From Gemmatimonadota bacterium (GTDB lineage Bacteria; Gemmatimonadota; Gemmatimonadetes; Longimicrobiales; Gaopeijiaceae): 64,000 nt of DNA. Position 1 is the stretch's first letter. The number at the start of each line of letters is the position of its first letter. The notes below the pieces were generated by a model. That model worked only from the letters and a program-made list of their open reading frames with translations. It searched no databases and had not been told where the DNA came from. The stretch is from positions 2,501-66,500 of the forward strand of contig JAUIEJ010000002.1 in NCBI GenBank assembly GCA_030428885.1, given 5' to 3'. Position numbers and translations under genes: made by a program. Positions 37,697 through 59,181 of the stretch are shown one piece after another.

Positions 37697-37793
37697 TGGC
37701 GGGAGCGTGTGGGAATCGAACCCACCAACCCGGGGGTTGGCCGGGCCAGCCGGTTTTGAAGACCGGTGGGGCCACCAGGCCCCCTCCGCCCCC
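37697..37793 (-). tRNA. selC: tRNA-Sec (anticodon TCA)
   Basis: Reverse strand, 97 nt including an encoded CCA (37697-37699). The D stem is the long 6-bp GGGGCC/GGCCCC with loop TGGT, diagnostic of selenocysteine tRNA. The anticodon stem CCGGT/ACCGG encloses CTTCAAA, anticodon TCA. A long variable arm (CCAACC/GGTTGG) and a T arm with GGTTCGATTCC follow. The acceptor is 8 bp with one G-U and a terminal mismatch. The organism therefore reads UGA as selenocysteine; selA, selB and selD must lie outside this window. Confidence 0.9.
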
Positions 37794-38931: not shown

Positions 38932-41337
38932 ATGACCGAGGTGTCCCAGATCTTCGAGACCATGGAGTACGGCCCGGCCCCCGAGGCCACGGGCCCCGCC
39001 AACGATTGGATCGACGCCCACGACGGCACCTTCGGTCTGTGGATCGACGGGGCCTGGGTCGAGGGATCCGACGGCGAGACGCTGGAGACCCGGCGCCCCT
39101 CCGACGGCACCCTCCTGGCGACGGTGACCCAGGGGTCGGCCGCCGACGTGGACCGCGCCGTGGCGGCGGCCCGCGCAGCCCTTCCCGCGTGGAGGGATCT
39201 GGGACCCCATGGCCGGGCCCGTCACCTCTACGCCCTGGGGCGGGCGCTCCAACGCAAGGCGCGGCTCTTCGCGGTGCTGGAGTCCATGGACAACGGAAAG
39301 CCCATCCGGGAGTCCCGGGACCTGGACATTCCCCTGGTGGCCCGGCACTTCATCCACCACGCCGGGTGGGCCCAGCTCATGGACGCCGAGCCCGAACTCG
39401 CCGGCACCGAGGGCGTGGGGGTGGTGGGGCAGATCATCCCGTGGAACTTCCCCCTCCTCATGCTGGCGTGGAAGGTGGCCCCGGCCCTGGCCACGGGGTG
39501 CACGGTGGTGTTGAAGCCCGCCGAATACACGCCCCTCACGGCCCTCTGTTTCGCCGAACTCGCCCGGGACGCGGGACTCCCGGCCGGTGTGCTCAACGTG
39601 GTGACGGGAGACGGTCGCACCGGCGCGGCGCTGGTGGATCACGCCGGCGTCGACAAGATCGCTTTCACGGGCTCCACCGAGGTGGGGCGCATCATCCGGA
39701 AGGCCACGGCCGGTTCGGGGAAGCGCCTGTCGCTGGAGCTGGGAGGCAAGAGCCCCTTCATCGTCTTCGACGACGCCGATCTGGATTCGGTGGTGGAGGG
39801 CGTGGTCGACGCCATCTGGTTCAACCAGGGCCAGGTGTGCTGCGCGGGGTCCCGGATCCTGGCCCACGAAGGCATCGCCCCCCGGCTCGTGGAGAAGCTC
39901 CGAGCCCGCATGGAACGCCTTCGCATGGGTGATCCCCTGGACAAGAGCGTGGACATGGGGGCCATCGTGGCGCCGGTCCAGCTCGAGCGGATCCGGGAGC
40001 TGGTGGCCCGGGGCGAGGACGAAGGCGCCACGGTGTGGCAGCCGTCGTGGGCCGCCCCTCGGGAGGGATGGTTCTACCCCCCGACTCTCTGCACCGAGGT
40101 GGCGCCGGCCTCGACCCTGGCCCAGGTGGAGGTGTTCGGTCCCGTGGTGGCCCTCATGACCTTCCGCACGCCCGACGAGGCCGTGGAACTGGCCAACGAC
40201 ACCCGCTACGGCCTGGCCGCCAGCATCTGGACCGAAAACGTGAACCTGGCCCTGGACGTGGCCCCCGCCGTCAAGGCCGGCACCGTGTGGGTGAACTGCA
40301 GCAACCTCTTCGACGCCGCCGCCGGGTTCGGCGGGGTCCGGGAGAGCGGGTACGGTCGCGAAGGGGGAATCGAGGGACTCCGGGAATACCTGCGCCCCTC
40401 GGACCAGGGCGACGCTCCCGTACGGGACGCGGCGGCCGAGGCCGCGTTGATGGCCGCGCCGGAGGCGGCGGACGCCGGGGAGGCTTCGGGCGCCGTGGAC
40501 CGCACCCCCAAGCACTACATCGGGGGACGCCAGGTCCGGCCCGACGCCGAATACGTGCTCCCGGTGCGGGACCGGAAGGGCCGGCTCCTGGCCGAGGTCC
40601 CCCGGGGCAACCGGAAGGACGTGCGCAACGCCGTGGAGGCCGCTCGGAAGGCCCAGGGGGCCTGGGCGAAGCGCACCGCCCACAACCGGGCCCAGGTGCT
40701 CTACTTCCTGGCCGAGAACCTGGAGCTCCGGGCCGACGAGTTCGCTCGGCGCCTGGAAGGGTGGCACGGCGCGTCCGACGCGGCACGGGCCGAGGTGGAT
40801 GCGGCGGTGCGCCGCCTCTTCACCTACGCGGCCTGGGCCGACAAGTGGGACGGGCGGGTGCACCACACCCCGTTCCGCAACGTCACCCTGGCCATGCCTG
40901 AACCCGTGGGCATCATGGGCCTGGTGGCCCCGGCCGAGGCCCCTCTCCTGGGACTCCTGTCGGGCCTGGCCCCCCTGGTGGCCATGGGCAACGCCGTGGT
41001 GGCCCTCCCCTCCCCCGGCTTCCCCCTGGCGGCCGTGGACCTCTACCAGGTGCTGGAAACCAGCGACGTGCCCGCGGGGGTGATCAACCTCGTGACCGGC
41101 ACCCGGGACGAGGTGGTCCCCACTCTGGCGGCCCACGACGGCGTCGACGGCCTGTGGGCCTTCGCCGACCGTGAGCTGTGCGCCCAGGTCGAGGCCCTCT
41201 CCGTGGGCAACATGAAGCGGCTGTGGTGCAGCCAGGGCCGGGTGCGACGGTGGACCGACGCCCGCCAGGGCGAGGGGCCGGAGTTCCTGCGGCAGGCGGT
41301 GCAGATCAAGAACGTCTGGGTGCCGTACGGCGAGTAA
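38932..41337 (+). CDS. Tandem (ALDH16-like) aldehyde dehydrogenase
   Basis: This is an 801-residue protein. The first domain (about 30-495) is a complete NAD-dependent aldehyde dehydrogenase: IIPWNFPLLMLAWKVAPALA, FTGSTEVG, LSLELGGKSP with E269, FNQGQVCCAGSR with nucleophile C303. The second (about 520-801) repeats the N-terminal two-thirds of the fold (KHYIGGRQVRPDAEYVLPVR, PEPVGIMGLVAPAEAPLLG) but has no catalytic Cys or Glu box and is shorter. This matches ALDH16, where the second domain is non-catalytic and structural. With deoC it forms a deoxynucleoside catabolic pair that turns acetaldehyde into acetate. Confidence 0.92.
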   Translation: MTEVSQIFETMEYGPAPEATGPANDWIDAHDGTFGLWIDGAWVEGSDGETLETRRPSDGTLLATVTQGSAADVDRAVAAARAALPAWRDLGPHGRARHLYALGRALQRKARLFAVLESMDNGKPIRESRDLDIPLVARHFIHHAGWAQLMDAEPELAGTEGVGVVGQIIPWNFPLLMLAWKVAPALATGCTVVLKPAEYTPLTALCFAELARDAGLPAGVLNVVTGDGRTGAALVDHAGVDKIAFTGSTEVGRIIRKATAGSGKRLSLELGGKSPFIVFDDADLDSVVEGVVDAIWFNQGQVCCAGSRILAHEGIAPRLVEKLRARMERLRMGDPLDKSVDMGAIVAPVQLERIRELVARGEDEGATVWQPSWAAPREGWFYPPTLCTEVAPASTLAQVEVFGPVVALMTFRTPDEAVELANDTRYGLAASIWTENVNLALDVAPAVKAGTVWVNCSNLFDAAAGFGGVRESGYGREGGIEGLREYLRPSDQGDAPVRDAAAEAALMAAPEAADAGEASGAVDRTPKHYIGGRQVRPDAEYVLPVRDRKGRLLAEVPRGNRKDVRNAVEAARKAQGAWAKRTAHNRAQVLYFLAENLELRADEFARRLEGWHGASDAARAEVDAAVRRLFTYAAWADKWDGRVHHTPFRNVTLAMPEPVGIMGLVAPAEAPLLGLLSGLAPLVAMGNAVVALPSPGFPLAAVDLYQVLETSDVPAGVINLVTGTRDEVVPTLAAHDGVDGLWAFADRELCAQVEALSVGNMKRLWCSQGRVRRWTDARQGEGPEFLRQAVQIKNVWVPYGE

Positions 41338-41350
41338 CCTCTGAGCAACG

Positions 41351-41437
41351 CGGGGGGAGGGTCGGGGATCCTCCGGAGCCGCGCTGCGCTTCCACGCTGC
41401 GCGTGGGCCGTCTCCGGAGGATCCATCCCTCCCCCCG
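41351..41437 (+). terminator. Large 3'-end hairpin with a conserved core, after the aldehyde dehydrogenase
   Basis: Fourteen bases after the stop, CGGGGGGAGGG (41351-41361) pairs with CCCTCCCCCCG (41427-41437). Inside, GGATCCTCCGGAG (41366-41378) pairs perfectly with CTCCGGAGGATCC (41412-41424). The loop core (CCGCGCTGCGCTTCCAC ... GGCCGT) recurs in the hairpin at 42172-42252 when both are read in gene sense. It probably ends transcription or stabilises the 3' end; no T tract is present. Confidence 0.7.
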
Positions 41438-41584
41438 CTCCAGCCGGGTCCTGCCGTGGTGGGGCGGGGGCCAGCCCACCCCCTCCCGGGGGCGCAATCC
41501 GCGTCCCGCCCCTATCCGGGGGGCCGGGTTTCCAATGGTCGGGGGCTGGTGCGACCGCCTCGCCGATCCCGCCGGAGTGCGCGG

Positions 41585-41763
41585 CCCTCAACCAACCCCA
41601 ACTCCGGCCCGGCCGGGGCTTCGGGTGGATTCGGGCGGCCTGGGCGCCTGAAGTTGACCGGACTCGCGGGGCCGCCGGTGCTTGTGGACGATTGGGGGCG
41701 CTCCGGCGCCCCCAAATCGACATTTCCCTCGGGGGGCCGGCGGTTCGGGGAACTTGGAGACCG
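41585..41763 (+). repeat. 180-bp hairpin repeat, tandem copy 1
   Basis: A 179-base unit from CCCTCAACCAACCCC to AACTTGGAGACCG, followed directly by a second copy with few changes. It contains the palindrome TTGGGGGCGC-TCCG-GCGCCCCCAA at 41692-41715: a perfect 10-bp stem closed by a UCCG (UNCG-class) tetraloop on a C-G pair, an exceptionally stable RNA hairpin. It is homologous to 25551-25728. Confidence 0.9.
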
Positions 41764-41906
41764 CCCTCAACCAACCCCAACTCCGGCCCGGCCGGGGCTT
41801 CGGGTGGATTCGTGCGGCCTGGGCGCCTGAAGCTGACCGGACTCGCGGGGCCGCCGGTGCTTGTGGACGATTGGGGGCGCTCCGGCGCCCCCAAATCGAC
41901 ATTTCC
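41764..41906 (+). repeat. 180-bp hairpin repeat, tandem copy 2 (3' part missing)
   Basis: This copy begins exactly 179 bases after copy 1 and matches it base for base except a few substitutions, through the palindrome at 41871-41894 and ATCGACATTTCC. It then diverges. The near identity points to recent duplication. Confidence 0.88.
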
Positions 41907-41999
41907 TTCCGGTATGGCGGCGTTGTGGAGGGTTGGGGGCGCGGGGCCGGATCCCGCGCCTTTCCGAACGCCTCCAAGTCTCCACGAGGCCCGAGAGTC

Positions 42000-42148
42000 G
42001 GACCCCTGTGGAGGATTGGGGGCGCCTGGCCGCACCAAGTGACCCCAACCGGCTCGGCCGCCGCGTGGTGCGGAAGATTGGGGGCGCTCCGGCGCCCCCA
42101 AATCGACATTTCCCTCGGGGGGCCGGCGGTTCGGGGAACTTGGAGACC
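42000..42148 (+). repeat. 180-bp hairpin repeat, degenerate/partial copy 3
   Basis: From the perfect palindrome at 42078-42101 to CTTGGAGACC at 42148 this copy equals copy 1. The part before it is only loosely similar (GGATTGGGGGCGCCTGG, CACCAAGTGACC). Together the copies look like a mosaic formed by unequal exchange. Confidence 0.75.
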
Positions 42149-42171
42149 CCGGGTCGGGGGTGAACGGAGCC

Positions 42172-42252
42172 GGGGCCCGCGAGGGTCCCCTGGAGACGGC
42201 CGACGCAACGTGTGGAAGCGCAGCGCGGCTCCAGGGGGCCCCCACGGGCCCC
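42172..42252 (-). terminator. Large 3'-end hairpin with the same core, after the sortilin-like gene
   Basis: Just downstream of the leftward gene that stops at 42280. GGGGCCCG (42172-42179) pairs with CGGGCCCC (42245-42252), and CCCCTGGAG (42187-42195) with CTCCAGGGG (42229-42237). In gene sense the loop reads CCGCGCTGCGCTTCCAC ... GGCCGT, the same core as at 41351-41437, while the stems differ with paired changes. Confidence 0.7.
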
Positions 42253-42279
42253 GGTGACGATCCCGGCCGGAAGCAGGGG

Positions 42280-45200
42280 TCAGGTGATCAGGTTCTCCGT
42301 CTGGATGGGATCCAGCCCGAGCTCGCGGAGCAGTTCGTTGAGCTGGGCCACGTCCTGCTGGATGATGATGGTGAGCAGCTCGAGCTGGGTGTCGAGCTCC
42401 CCGGTGAGCTTCTGGTACACGTCCATGGACTGGTCCGTGGGACGCGACTCGGCGCCTTCAACCACCCCGAGGAGGGCGGCGATCTTGTTGTTGAGCTTGA
42501 TGGGGAAGTTCAGGGGGTCCTGGTTCGACTGGTTCCGGACCTGGTACACCTCCTGCTCCACCGCCCCCAGCTTGGTCTCCACCTGGTCGCCCAGGCTCTG
42601 GAGTTCGGCGTTGCCCGACTCCTCCTGCCGGGCGTCGATCTGCTCCTTGATGCGCCGGATGCGGATGACGGCCTCGTTGGCCGCGCTCACCTGGTCCCGG
42701 ATCTGCATGGCGAAATCGAAGCGGGCCTGGAGGTCGGCCATGGTGACCCCTTCGGAGGCGGCCCGGGGGTTCATGCGGACCTCGAAGTCCTGCTCGTAGG
42801 CGGTGCCGTCCACCGTCATGCGCACCGTGTAGGTGCCCGGCAAAGCCGCCGGGCCCTGATTGCCCGCCGCCCAGAAGATCCGCCCCTCGAAGTCGGTGTA
42901 CCCCGGGTAGCGCATGTTCCAGGAGAAGCGGTTCGATCCGGCGCTGGTCGACGGGCGTCCGCCCCCGAATCCACCGAAGCCTCCGAAGCCGCCGCCACCC
43001 TGGCCGGCCTGATCTTCATCGCCGGCGGGGCGGCTCTCGAAGGTCTGGATCACGTCGCCGCCCGGACCCACGAACTCGAAGGTCACCTGATCGGCGTCGT
43101 CGGCCAGGTAGTAGAACATCTGGACGCTGTTGTCGAAGCCGCGGATCGGATCCACCGGGTCGAACAGCACGGCGTCGGCCTGGGCCATGTCCGGCGTGAT
43201 CTGGCGGAGCGGCAGCATGTCCTCCAGCACCCAGAACGACCGGCCGTGGGTGGACACCACCACGTCGTGGTCCTCCACCACCAGGTCCGAGATCTGGGCG
43301 TTGGGGAGGTTCAGCGTCAGGGGCTGCCAGTGGGCGCCGTCGTCCCAGGAGACGTACACCGTCTCCTCGGTGGCGGCGTAGAGCAGGCCGGGCCGCATGG
43401 GGTCTTCCCGGACGGCCCGGACGAAGTGATCGGACTCGATGCCCGTGACGATCTTGGTCCAGCTCTGCCCGTAGTTTTCGGTCTTCCAGATGTAGGGCGC
43501 CCGGTCGTCGTCCACGAGATACCGGATCCCCGAGACGTAGGCCTTGCCCGGGGTGGTGGGCGACGCCTCGATGGTGTTGATCCGAACGAAGTCCGGCGCA
43601 TCGGGCGGTGTGACGTTGGTCCAGGAGGGCTCACCGGCCGACGCGTTGCGGGTGACGTGGACGTATCCGTCGTCGGACCCGGCCCAGATCACCTCGGCGT
43701 CGTGGGGCGAGGGGGCGATGGCGAAGACGGTGGCGTAGGTCTCCACCCCCGTCTGGTCTCGGGTGATGGGTCCACCGCTGGGGCCCACCGTCATGGCATC
43801 GGCCCGGGTGAGGTCGGGGCTGATCTGCTCCCACGACTGACCCTCGTTGCGGGTCCGCCAGACCTTCTGGGTCCCGGTGAAGAGCAGGTTCGGGTCGTGG
43901 GGCGAGAAGACGATGGGGAACGTCCACTGGACCCGTTCCACCAGGTCCTCGGCCGATTGCCCCATGGGGTTCTCGGGCCAGACGTTGATGGCCCGGGTCA
44001 TCCCCGTCCCGTGGTCGTACCGGCTCAGGCTTCCGCCGTAGCAGCCCGCGTAGAAGATGTCGGTGTCCACCGGATGGGGGGCGATGTAGCCCGACTCACA
44101 CCCGCCCACCGAGTAGAGGAAGTCGGGACCGCCGGCATTCTGGGAGAGGTGGTTCCAGCCCCCCGAAGGAACGCAGGCCGTGGAGTTGTCCTGCTGGGCT
44201 CCACAGATGTGGTAGGGTTCGTGCGCCGTGGTGATCACCCGGTAGAACTGGGCGGTGCTGAAGTCCTGATCGGTCCAGGAATCCCCGCCGTTGACCGAGA
44301 CGTTGGCTCCGCCGTCGTTGGAGTTGATCATCCGGGAGTTGTCGCTGGGGGCGAGCCAGAGGTCGTGGTTGTCGCCGTGGGGCACCCGGTAGGACCGGGG
44401 GAACGACTCGCCACCGTCCCGGGACTGGTAGAACCCGGTGTTGAGCACGTACACCACGTCCCGCTCCTGGGGATCGGCGTAGATGCGGGTGTAGTAGAAG
44501 GCCCGCTGCCGAAGGCGCCGTTCGTCGTTGGTCTGCTCCCAGGTGTCGCCGCCGTCGTCGGACCGGAAGACCCCGCCCTCGTCGTGCTCCACGATGGCGT
44601 AGACCCGCTGGGCGTCCACCGGCGAGACGGCGATGCCGACCTTGCCGATCAAGCCGTCCTGGGGGAGTCCCGGGTTCCGTGTGATCTCGGACCAGGTCTC
44701 GCCTCCGTCGGTGGAGCGGAACAGCCCCGAGCCGGGGCCTCCGGAGCTCATGCCCCACGACTTCCGCCACGCCTCCCAGAGGCCGGCGTAGACGATGTCG
44801 GGATTGCCGGGGTGCACCGAGAGATCGACCCCACCGGTGCGGGCATCCCGGTACAGGACCTTGCGCCAGGTTTGTCCGCCGTCGGTGGTCTTGAAGATCC
44901 CCCGCTCTTCGTTCTCGGCGGAGTGTTTCCCGAAGCCGGCGGCCCACGCCGTGTTGCAGTCCGTGGGATGAACCCGGATCCGGGCGATGTTCTGGGTCTC
45001 GGCCAGGCCGATGTGTTCCCAGCTCTCACCGCCGTCGTCGCTGCGGTAGGCCCCGTCGCCTTGCATGATGTTGCCTCGGAGCTGGGTCTCCCCCGTTCCG
45101 ATGTACACCACGTCGGGATCGGCTTCGCACACCCCCACGGCACCCACCGACGCGCTGCCGATGAACCCGTCGGTGACGTTCTCCCAGTTCAGGCCCCCGT

Positions 45201-45438
45201 CGTCGGTCTTCCAGAGCCCTCCCCCAGCCGCTCCGAAGTAGTACTCGAAGGGGCGGGCATCGGACCCGGCCACCCCGGTGGAGCGGCCGCCCCGGGCCGG
45301 ACCCGGGTTGGACCAGCGAAGGGCGTCGTAGAGGGCTTCGTCGACCTGTTGCGCGGATGCGGAGGGCGGAGCGCCGACCGCGGCCAGGCCCAGGAAGGCC
45401 AGAACGGCGGTCCCGCGCCGCGTGGACCGTTGACTCAT
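42280..45438 (-). CDS. Secreted sortilin/BNR-type beta-propeller protein
   Basis: This is a 1052-residue protein. The ATG at 45438 (preceded by CAGGTGACATC) begins a signal peptide ending PPSASAQQ. The N-terminal two-thirds form BNR/VPS10-like propeller blades with many Asp-box variants: GLWKTDDGGLNWENV, GAYRSDDGGESWEHI, GIFKTTDGGQTWRKV, GLFRSTDGGETWSEI, GVFRSDDGGDTWEQT. The C-terminal 250 residues hold a beta domain and a helical coiled stretch (LQARFDFAMQIRDQVSAANE). It resembles the large secreted glycosyl-hydrolase-like proteins common in Gemmatimonadota; no sialidase active-site set could be assigned. Location is periplasm or surface. Confidence 0.85.
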   Translation of the reverse strand: MSQRSTRRGTAVLAFLGLAAVGAPPSASAQQVDEALYDALRWSNPGPARGGRSTGVAGSDARPFEYYFGAAGGGLWKTDDGGLNWENVTDGFIGSASVGAVGVCEADPDVVYIGTGETQLRGNIMQGDGAYRSDDGGESWEHIGLAETQNIARIRVHPTDCNTAWAAGFGKHSAENEERGIFKTTDGGQTWRKVLYRDARTGGVDLSVHPGNPDIVYAGLWEAWRKSWGMSSGGPGSGLFRSTDGGETWSEITRNPGLPQDGLIGKVGIAVSPVDAQRVYAIVEHDEGGVFRSDDGGDTWEQTNDERRLRQRAFYYTRIYADPQERDVVYVLNTGFYQSRDGGESFPRSYRVPHGDNHDLWLAPSDNSRMINSNDGGANVSVNGGDSWTDQDFSTAQFYRVITTAHEPYHICGAQQDNSTACVPSGGWNHLSQNAGGPDFLYSVGGCESGYIAPHPVDTDIFYAGCYGGSLSRYDHGTGMTRAINVWPENPMGQSAEDLVERVQWTFPIVFSPHDPNLLFTGTQKVWRTRNEGQSWEQISPDLTRADAMTVGPSGGPITRDQTGVETYATVFAIAPSPHDAEVIWAGSDDGYVHVTRNASAGEPSWTNVTPPDAPDFVRINTIEASPTTPGKAYVSGIRYLVDDDRAPYIWKTENYGQSWTKIVTGIESDHFVRAVREDPMRPGLLYAATEETVYVSWDDGAHWQPLTLNLPNAQISDLVVEDHDVVVSTHGRSFWVLEDMLPLRQITPDMAQADAVLFDPVDPIRGFDNSVQMFYYLADDADQVTFEFVGPGGDVIQTFESRPAGDEDQAGQGGGGFGGFGGFGGGRPSTSAGSNRFSWNMRYPGYTDFEGRIFWAAGNQGPAALPGTYTVRMTVDGTAYEQDFEVRMNPRAASEGVTMADLQARFDFAMQIRDQVSAANEAVIRIRRIKEQIDARQEESGNAELQSLGDQVETKLGAVEQEVYQVRNQSNQDPLNFPIKLNNKIAALLGVVEGAESRPTDQSMDVYQKLTGELDTQLELLTIIIQQDVAQLNELLRELGLDPIQTENLIT

Positions 45439-59145: not shown

Positions 59146-59181
59146 CGAAGGCCCGATCCCCCGGCGGGGATCGGGCCTTCG
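59146..59181. terminator. Bidirectional hairpin terminator
   Basis: CGAAGGCCCGATCCCC and its exact complement form a 16-bp stem with a CGGC loop, between the stops of two convergent genes (59116 and 59201). It serves both strands; the forward side lacks a strong T tract. Confidence 0.88.

Follow-up and report, generated by a model that had tools for sequence, protein, structure and literature searches.

Headed hairpins at gene ends: a palindrome family within one family of Gemmatimonadota

Two hairpins at the ends of convergent genes

The window, i.e., the whole stretch of 64 kb analysed here (G000:C8:2501-66500), belongs to a genome of 5.39 Mb in 23 contigs. It holds an aldehyde dehydrogenase (ALDH) gene of 801 aa (38932-41337, plus strand) and, convergent to it, a sortilin-like gene of the VPS10/BNR type (42280-45438, minus strand), and the 3' end of each carries a long hairpin. 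Hairpin 1 (own1, 41350-41438) begins 12 nt downstream of the ALDH stop at 41337, and 25 nt lie between the end of hairpin 2 (own2, 42170-42254) and the sortilin-like stop at 42280. Both belong to a family of gene-end DNA palindromes that had not been listed before.

Hairpin 1 was delimited by its fold, by repeats and by a match to our covariance model R1 (41361-41428, minus strand, 70 bits). Its outer helix pairs GCGGGGGGAGGG (41350-41361) with CCCTCCCCCCGC (41427-41438), and its inner helix pairs GGATCCTCCGGAG (41366-41378) with CTCCGGAGGATCC (41412-41424). These helices enclose a conserved head at 41379-41411, defined by sequence, alignment A2 and pair counts, which is read on the minus strand, antisense to the ALDH gene, in the order A, CGG, arm A (41391-41407, GCA loop), mini-hairpin GCGCAGC (41383-41389) and GCGG. 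Hairpin 2, delimited by its fold and an R1 match (42179-42246, plus strand, 69.7 bits), pairs 42170-42195 with 42229-42254. Its head (42196-42228; sequence and alignment A2) is read on the plus strand, again antisense to the gene, as A, CGG, arm A (42200-42215), mini-hairpin GCGCAGC (42218-42224) and GCGG. Folding z-scores are -6.3 and -5.7, respectively, and none of 200 shuffles was equally stable.

The first-pass annotation had described one apical core common to both hairpins, and GGAGCCGCGCTGCGCTTCCA ... GGCCGTCTCC is indeed present in each. Also the differing stems with preserved pairing, CCTCCGGAG/CTCCGGAGG versus CCCCTGGAG/CTCCAGGGG, were found as quoted. The outer stems are unrelated in sequence, while the core itself is a three-way junction. 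An exact search of the 5.39 Mb genome found its 20-nt sequence at precisely two places.

Between the two hairpins (41584-42119) lie three copies of a repeat of approximately 150 nt, spaced by 179 and 207 nt, which contains the palindrome TTGGGGGCGCTCCGGCGCCCCCAA; it has 33 matches in the genome, many of them in tandem arrays on contigs C1, C8, C11, C13 and C23. The window also carries a tRNA-Sec gene (37701-37793, minus strand; Rfam RF01852, 74.5 bits). At the gathering score, Rfam reported nothing in the window except tRNAs, and for eight loci of the family it gave only sub-threshold matches to microRNA precursors, which stem from the stem shape. Our literature search found no paper on this gene-end palindrome.

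Copies, distribution and position

Model R1 was built from seven copies (14 of 26 pairs changed on both sides), and a second model, R2, from eleven copies of the other head subtype (19 of 26 pairs). Their combined matches amount to 53 copies in 12 to 14 genomes, restricted to one family of Gemmatimonadota. There are nine copies in the window genome, at least eight in the same-genus relative G003, three in G001, and 1 to 12 each in G004, G008, G010, G041, G043, G045, G102, G113, G114 and G379, where counts from large genome sets are lower bounds and the single copies of G041, G113 and G379 have the weakest support. BLAST and exact patterns alone recovered two of the nine window-genome copies that the covariance models detect. 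The first copies in G003 came from a DNA search of relatives; one of them sits at the orthologous ALDH 3' end with an entirely different stem.

Outside the carrier family, the covariance models detected no further copies in approximately 395 Gemmatimonadota genomes. A weak match in G082, a member of another family (E = 0.002), was set aside as the head is absent. Plasmids and phages gave no blastn match to the element. Pattern matches in IMG/VR were rejected as incompatible with the covariance models, those in Xanthobacter, Herbiconiux and a deltaproteobacterium are chance hits without such a stem, and one-mismatch matches in other genomes were mostly sequence without the hairpin.

The covariance search of the genome and its relatives bears out what the first-pass annotation expected of a genuine element: further copies preserve stem pairing and lie near stop codons, the median distance between stop codon and stem being 20 nt. 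Orientation was counted for copies facing a single gene 3' end no more than 100 nt away: in 31 the head strand runs antisense to the adjoining gene, and in 2 it is the gene's own strand. The count excludes five copies that are ambiguous or have two gene ends next to them, as well as 15 that are not judgeable, many of them at contig ends. For the window genome, where genes are our own codon-usage calls and not an annotation, the head is antisense in all nine copies. With a single exception, no copy has more than three consecutive T in the 12 nt after the hairpin.

Copies are retained at orthologous genes, whose names were assigned by eye from the sequences: ompA (own5/G001b), marR (own8/G001c), dcd (own9/G001a), ALDH (own1/G003) and the sortilin-like gene (own2/G003/G004). 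The secA 3' end carries copies in two genera, g4 and g6; in other genera generally weak hairpins only were found there, by a survey that under-called the copies of G043 and G010 because a short helix within the head won. In G001, the ALDH/sortilin-like pair is approximately 107 bp apart with a plain 12-bp hairpin in between, and thus the headed form can be gained or lost.

Head structure and strand signatures

Each copy consists of a locus-specific, near-perfect stem, mostly of 20-35 bp, and the conserved three-way-junction head. On the head strand, the head comprises an A.G mismatch, a helix of 2-3 bp, the variable arm A and the mini-hairpin GCGNAGC. The stem tip is usually GGAG/CTCC in the window genus, and the short head helix occurs, depending on the copy, as CGG/-CG, CGG/UCG, CGA/UCG, CGG/CCG or CAG/CUG. 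Arm A has 5-9 bp and in most copies a GNA-type triloop. In own6 the mini-hairpin is longer, yet its pairing and GAA loop are retained.

Alignment A7, our largest, has 36 distinct rows; both partners change in 21 of its 26 pairs, and 196 cells are compensated. Its covariation score of 0.581 compares with 0.165 for shuffles and at most 0.122 for slid controls (0 of 500 shuffles reached it); A7 was fitted to the covariance model and leans towards structure, while the MAFFT alignments A2 and A6 agree with it. Both pairs of GCGNAGC are unchanged in all 36 rows; in the 53-copy table this motif served as pattern anchor, so that its invariance there is partly by construction. We also ran a model-free hairpin scan over 864 kb of the window genome, namely all of contig C2, the window and three further stretches, two of which were chosen for holding copies. 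It yielded 24 hairpins scoring at least 14, and all five above 18 carry the head; no plain hairpin exceeds 18. At gene ends in the window, plain hairpins combine stems of 15-16 bp with loops of 4-6 nt and lack a T-run. One plain palindrome of 16 bp with a 4-nt loop (59146-59181) is common to two convergent genes, likewise without a T-run.

Read on the head strand, the non-Watson-Crick cells of A7 comprise 55 A.G, no C.T, 49 G.T and 18 A.C, numbers that stand for perhaps ten independent strand events and not dozens, since many copies share ancestry and the covariance models were built on that strand. The intermediates at those two pairs of arm A that vary most are T.G or G.T, never C.A, and the tips of arm A are GAA, GCA or GTA in approximately 37 of 53 copies. 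On the transcribed strand, these features become C.U and A.C mismatches and UNC loops. The wobbles, A.G mismatches and GNA loops fit the head strand and not the transcript, which we regard as good but not conclusive evidence. The stems alone show little strand bias, as would be expected if they are kept perfect at the DNA level.

In DNA, mini-hairpins with a GNA loop and closing G-C pairs are extraordinarily stable; GCGAAGC has a Tm of 78 C, and d(GCGNAGC) is known from isolated oligonucleotides and as an aptamer cap (PMC4686876). The second arm of the head is exactly this motif, and arm A usually ends in a C-GNA-G tip; unlike here, the motif is not known as part of a gene-end family.

Known systems and possible function

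Inverted repeats of E. coli cluster approximately 25 bp after stop codons and are mostly terminators (PMC6060812). The gene-end position alone is therefore ordinary, whereas a conserved, strand-specific head is not. Like intrinsic (Rho-independent) terminators, the headed hairpins are GC-rich and follow shortly after the stop codon; unlike them, they lack the immediate T run, have stems of up to approximately 35 bp and carry a conserved, structured tip that folds best on the strand absent from the transcript.

REP elements, BIMEs and REPINs are likewise palindromic and dispersed, mostly downstream of genes and often in inverted pairs, and REP elements also have their recognition features on one strand. 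REPs measure 20-40 bp; their stems, of 5-13 bp, have a family-conserved sequence, their GTAG/CGTC tags are unpaired, and the GTAG type has RAYT enzymes (PMC3733652). In contrast, the headed hairpins span approximately 60-110 bp, are few, and combine long stems of free, locus-specific sequence with a conserved three-way head. A constant tag at the stem base was not found, GTAG occurring upstream in some copies of the window genome and G001 only. An association with RAYT was rejected, as Y1_Tnp (PF01797) is absent from the five carrier genomes examined (G000, G001, G003, G004 and G008).

A likeness also exists to the attC sites of integrons. There, the antisense strand is folded just after the stop codon, structure outweighs stem sequence, the stem base and extrahelical bases are conserved, and the site serves gene cassettes. 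The headed hairpins share the folded antisense strand behind the stop and the primacy of structure over stem sequence, but what they conserve is the tip, and they adjoin ordinary chromosomal genes. A primosome site was considered for the AAGCGG motif and dropped, as the exact motif is absent.

Hairpins at gene ends are usually viewed either as terminators whose sequence is free or as short, sequence-constrained repeats. In the present family the stem can vary, whereas the tip is constant and belongs to one particular strand, and this implies that folded nucleic acid is read at gene ends; the combination of a free stem with a conserved three-armed tip suggests that something in the cell recognises the tip. 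We tentatively favour, at somewhat below an even chance, a reading in which the stem acts as a terminator or insulator of transcription and the head, folded as template-strand DNA, serves as a binding site, because the wobbles, A.G mismatches and GNA loops suit the head strand and not the transcript. The stem would be the transcription-ending and insulating hairpin of its gene; the plain 3' hairpins of this genome also do without T-runs. The template-strand head, with its two GNA mini-hairpins as caps, may fold as DNA when the palindrome extrudes or becomes single-stranded, and a putative structure-specific protein would bind it, so that structure would mark the gene end as a polar site. Stem sequence could then drift freely, with pairing restored by arm-to-arm template switching or by selection. 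Against this DNA-level reading count that we found no protein partner for the head, that there are only 1-12 copies per genome, that the stems have little strand bias, and that the gene-end position fits any terminator (PMC6060812). The wider notion of a cis-acting DNA-structure element, a near-perfect palindrome of free sequence that displays a three-armed, GNA-capped template-strand head to a dedicated protein at gene ends and gives transcription a polar end or insulation, we consider doubtful.

The first-pass annotation had left the choice between a structured RNA element at 3' ends and a hairpin-specific mobile DNA. The structured 3'-end element stands, as further copies keep their stem pairing and sit near stop codons; its RNA nature is not established, because the conserved mismatches, wobbles and tip loops suit the strand opposite to the transcript. 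A transcribed 3' hairpin that ends transcription or protects the mRNA 3' end, with a protein binding the sense-RNA head, would agree with the fixed orientation near stop codons, with the terminator role typical of gene-end hairpins (PMC6060812) and with the plain 12-bp hairpin between the same two genes in G001. We nevertheless rate it as rather unlikely: a T-run is absent, the C.U mismatches, A.C wobbles and UNC loops of the sense strand are all unfavourable, and plain hairpins here, scoring 18 or less, do without a head. If instead the head strand were transcribed, as a small antisense RNA running towards the gene end with the three-way junction as functional RNA, every strand signature would fall into place. 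At own6, the tightest case, the start of such a transcript would have to fit into the 76 nt before the next gene, which is read in the opposite direction; the flank there is very GC-rich, with no promoter visible by eye. Together with the 2-bp GNA mini-hairpin, a motif known for stabilising DNA, this leaves the idea very improbable.

Mobile DNA is possible in the form of a REP-like non-autonomous palindrome, its head being the single-strand site of a putative transposase and its insertion or survival being favoured at gene ends. Copies are dispersed and form inverted pairs, the element is absent from the same locus in G001, and its strand-specific structure recalls that used by ssDNA transposases. 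Moreover, genus g4 has near-identical hairpin copies of approximately 90 bp in non-homologous intergenic regions (L142, L148, L138 and L132), which look as if they had recently spread. With no associated enzyme, copies kept at orthologous genes, and stems in the window genus that are unrelated between copies despite lying inside the element, we hold this origin to be rather unlikely. That the hairpins are chance GC-rich structures or assembly artefacts is hardly credible. Several copies of G003 and g4 do lie at contig ends, but a genome of 23 contigs has nine copies and one that consists of a single contig has three, and the covariation and orientation statistics already contradict this explanation.

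A natural test of how long palindromes remain perfect during sequence turnover is offered by own7 and own8, which are separated by 267 bp and adjoin the ends of an ispH-like gene and marR, respectively (L195:2955-3342). Their heads match, as do 8-9 nt on the downstream side and an upstream flank (19 of 21 nt) that in part copies the end of marR; the stems, in contrast, are mutually unrelated and each nearly perfect. In g4, compensation is visible as a gradual process, which does not easily account for the wholesale exchange of both arms in own7/own8. Template switching at quasipalindromes is a known route to perfect palindromes (PMC7202029). The outer helix of own1 resembles the terminator of G001; insertion of a fixed element into the loop of an older terminator was rejected, as most copies have no such two-part build. 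At the ompA hairpin of G001, part of the head and arm is repeated approximately 25 nt beyond (L136, downstream of 1581 or upstream of 1487).
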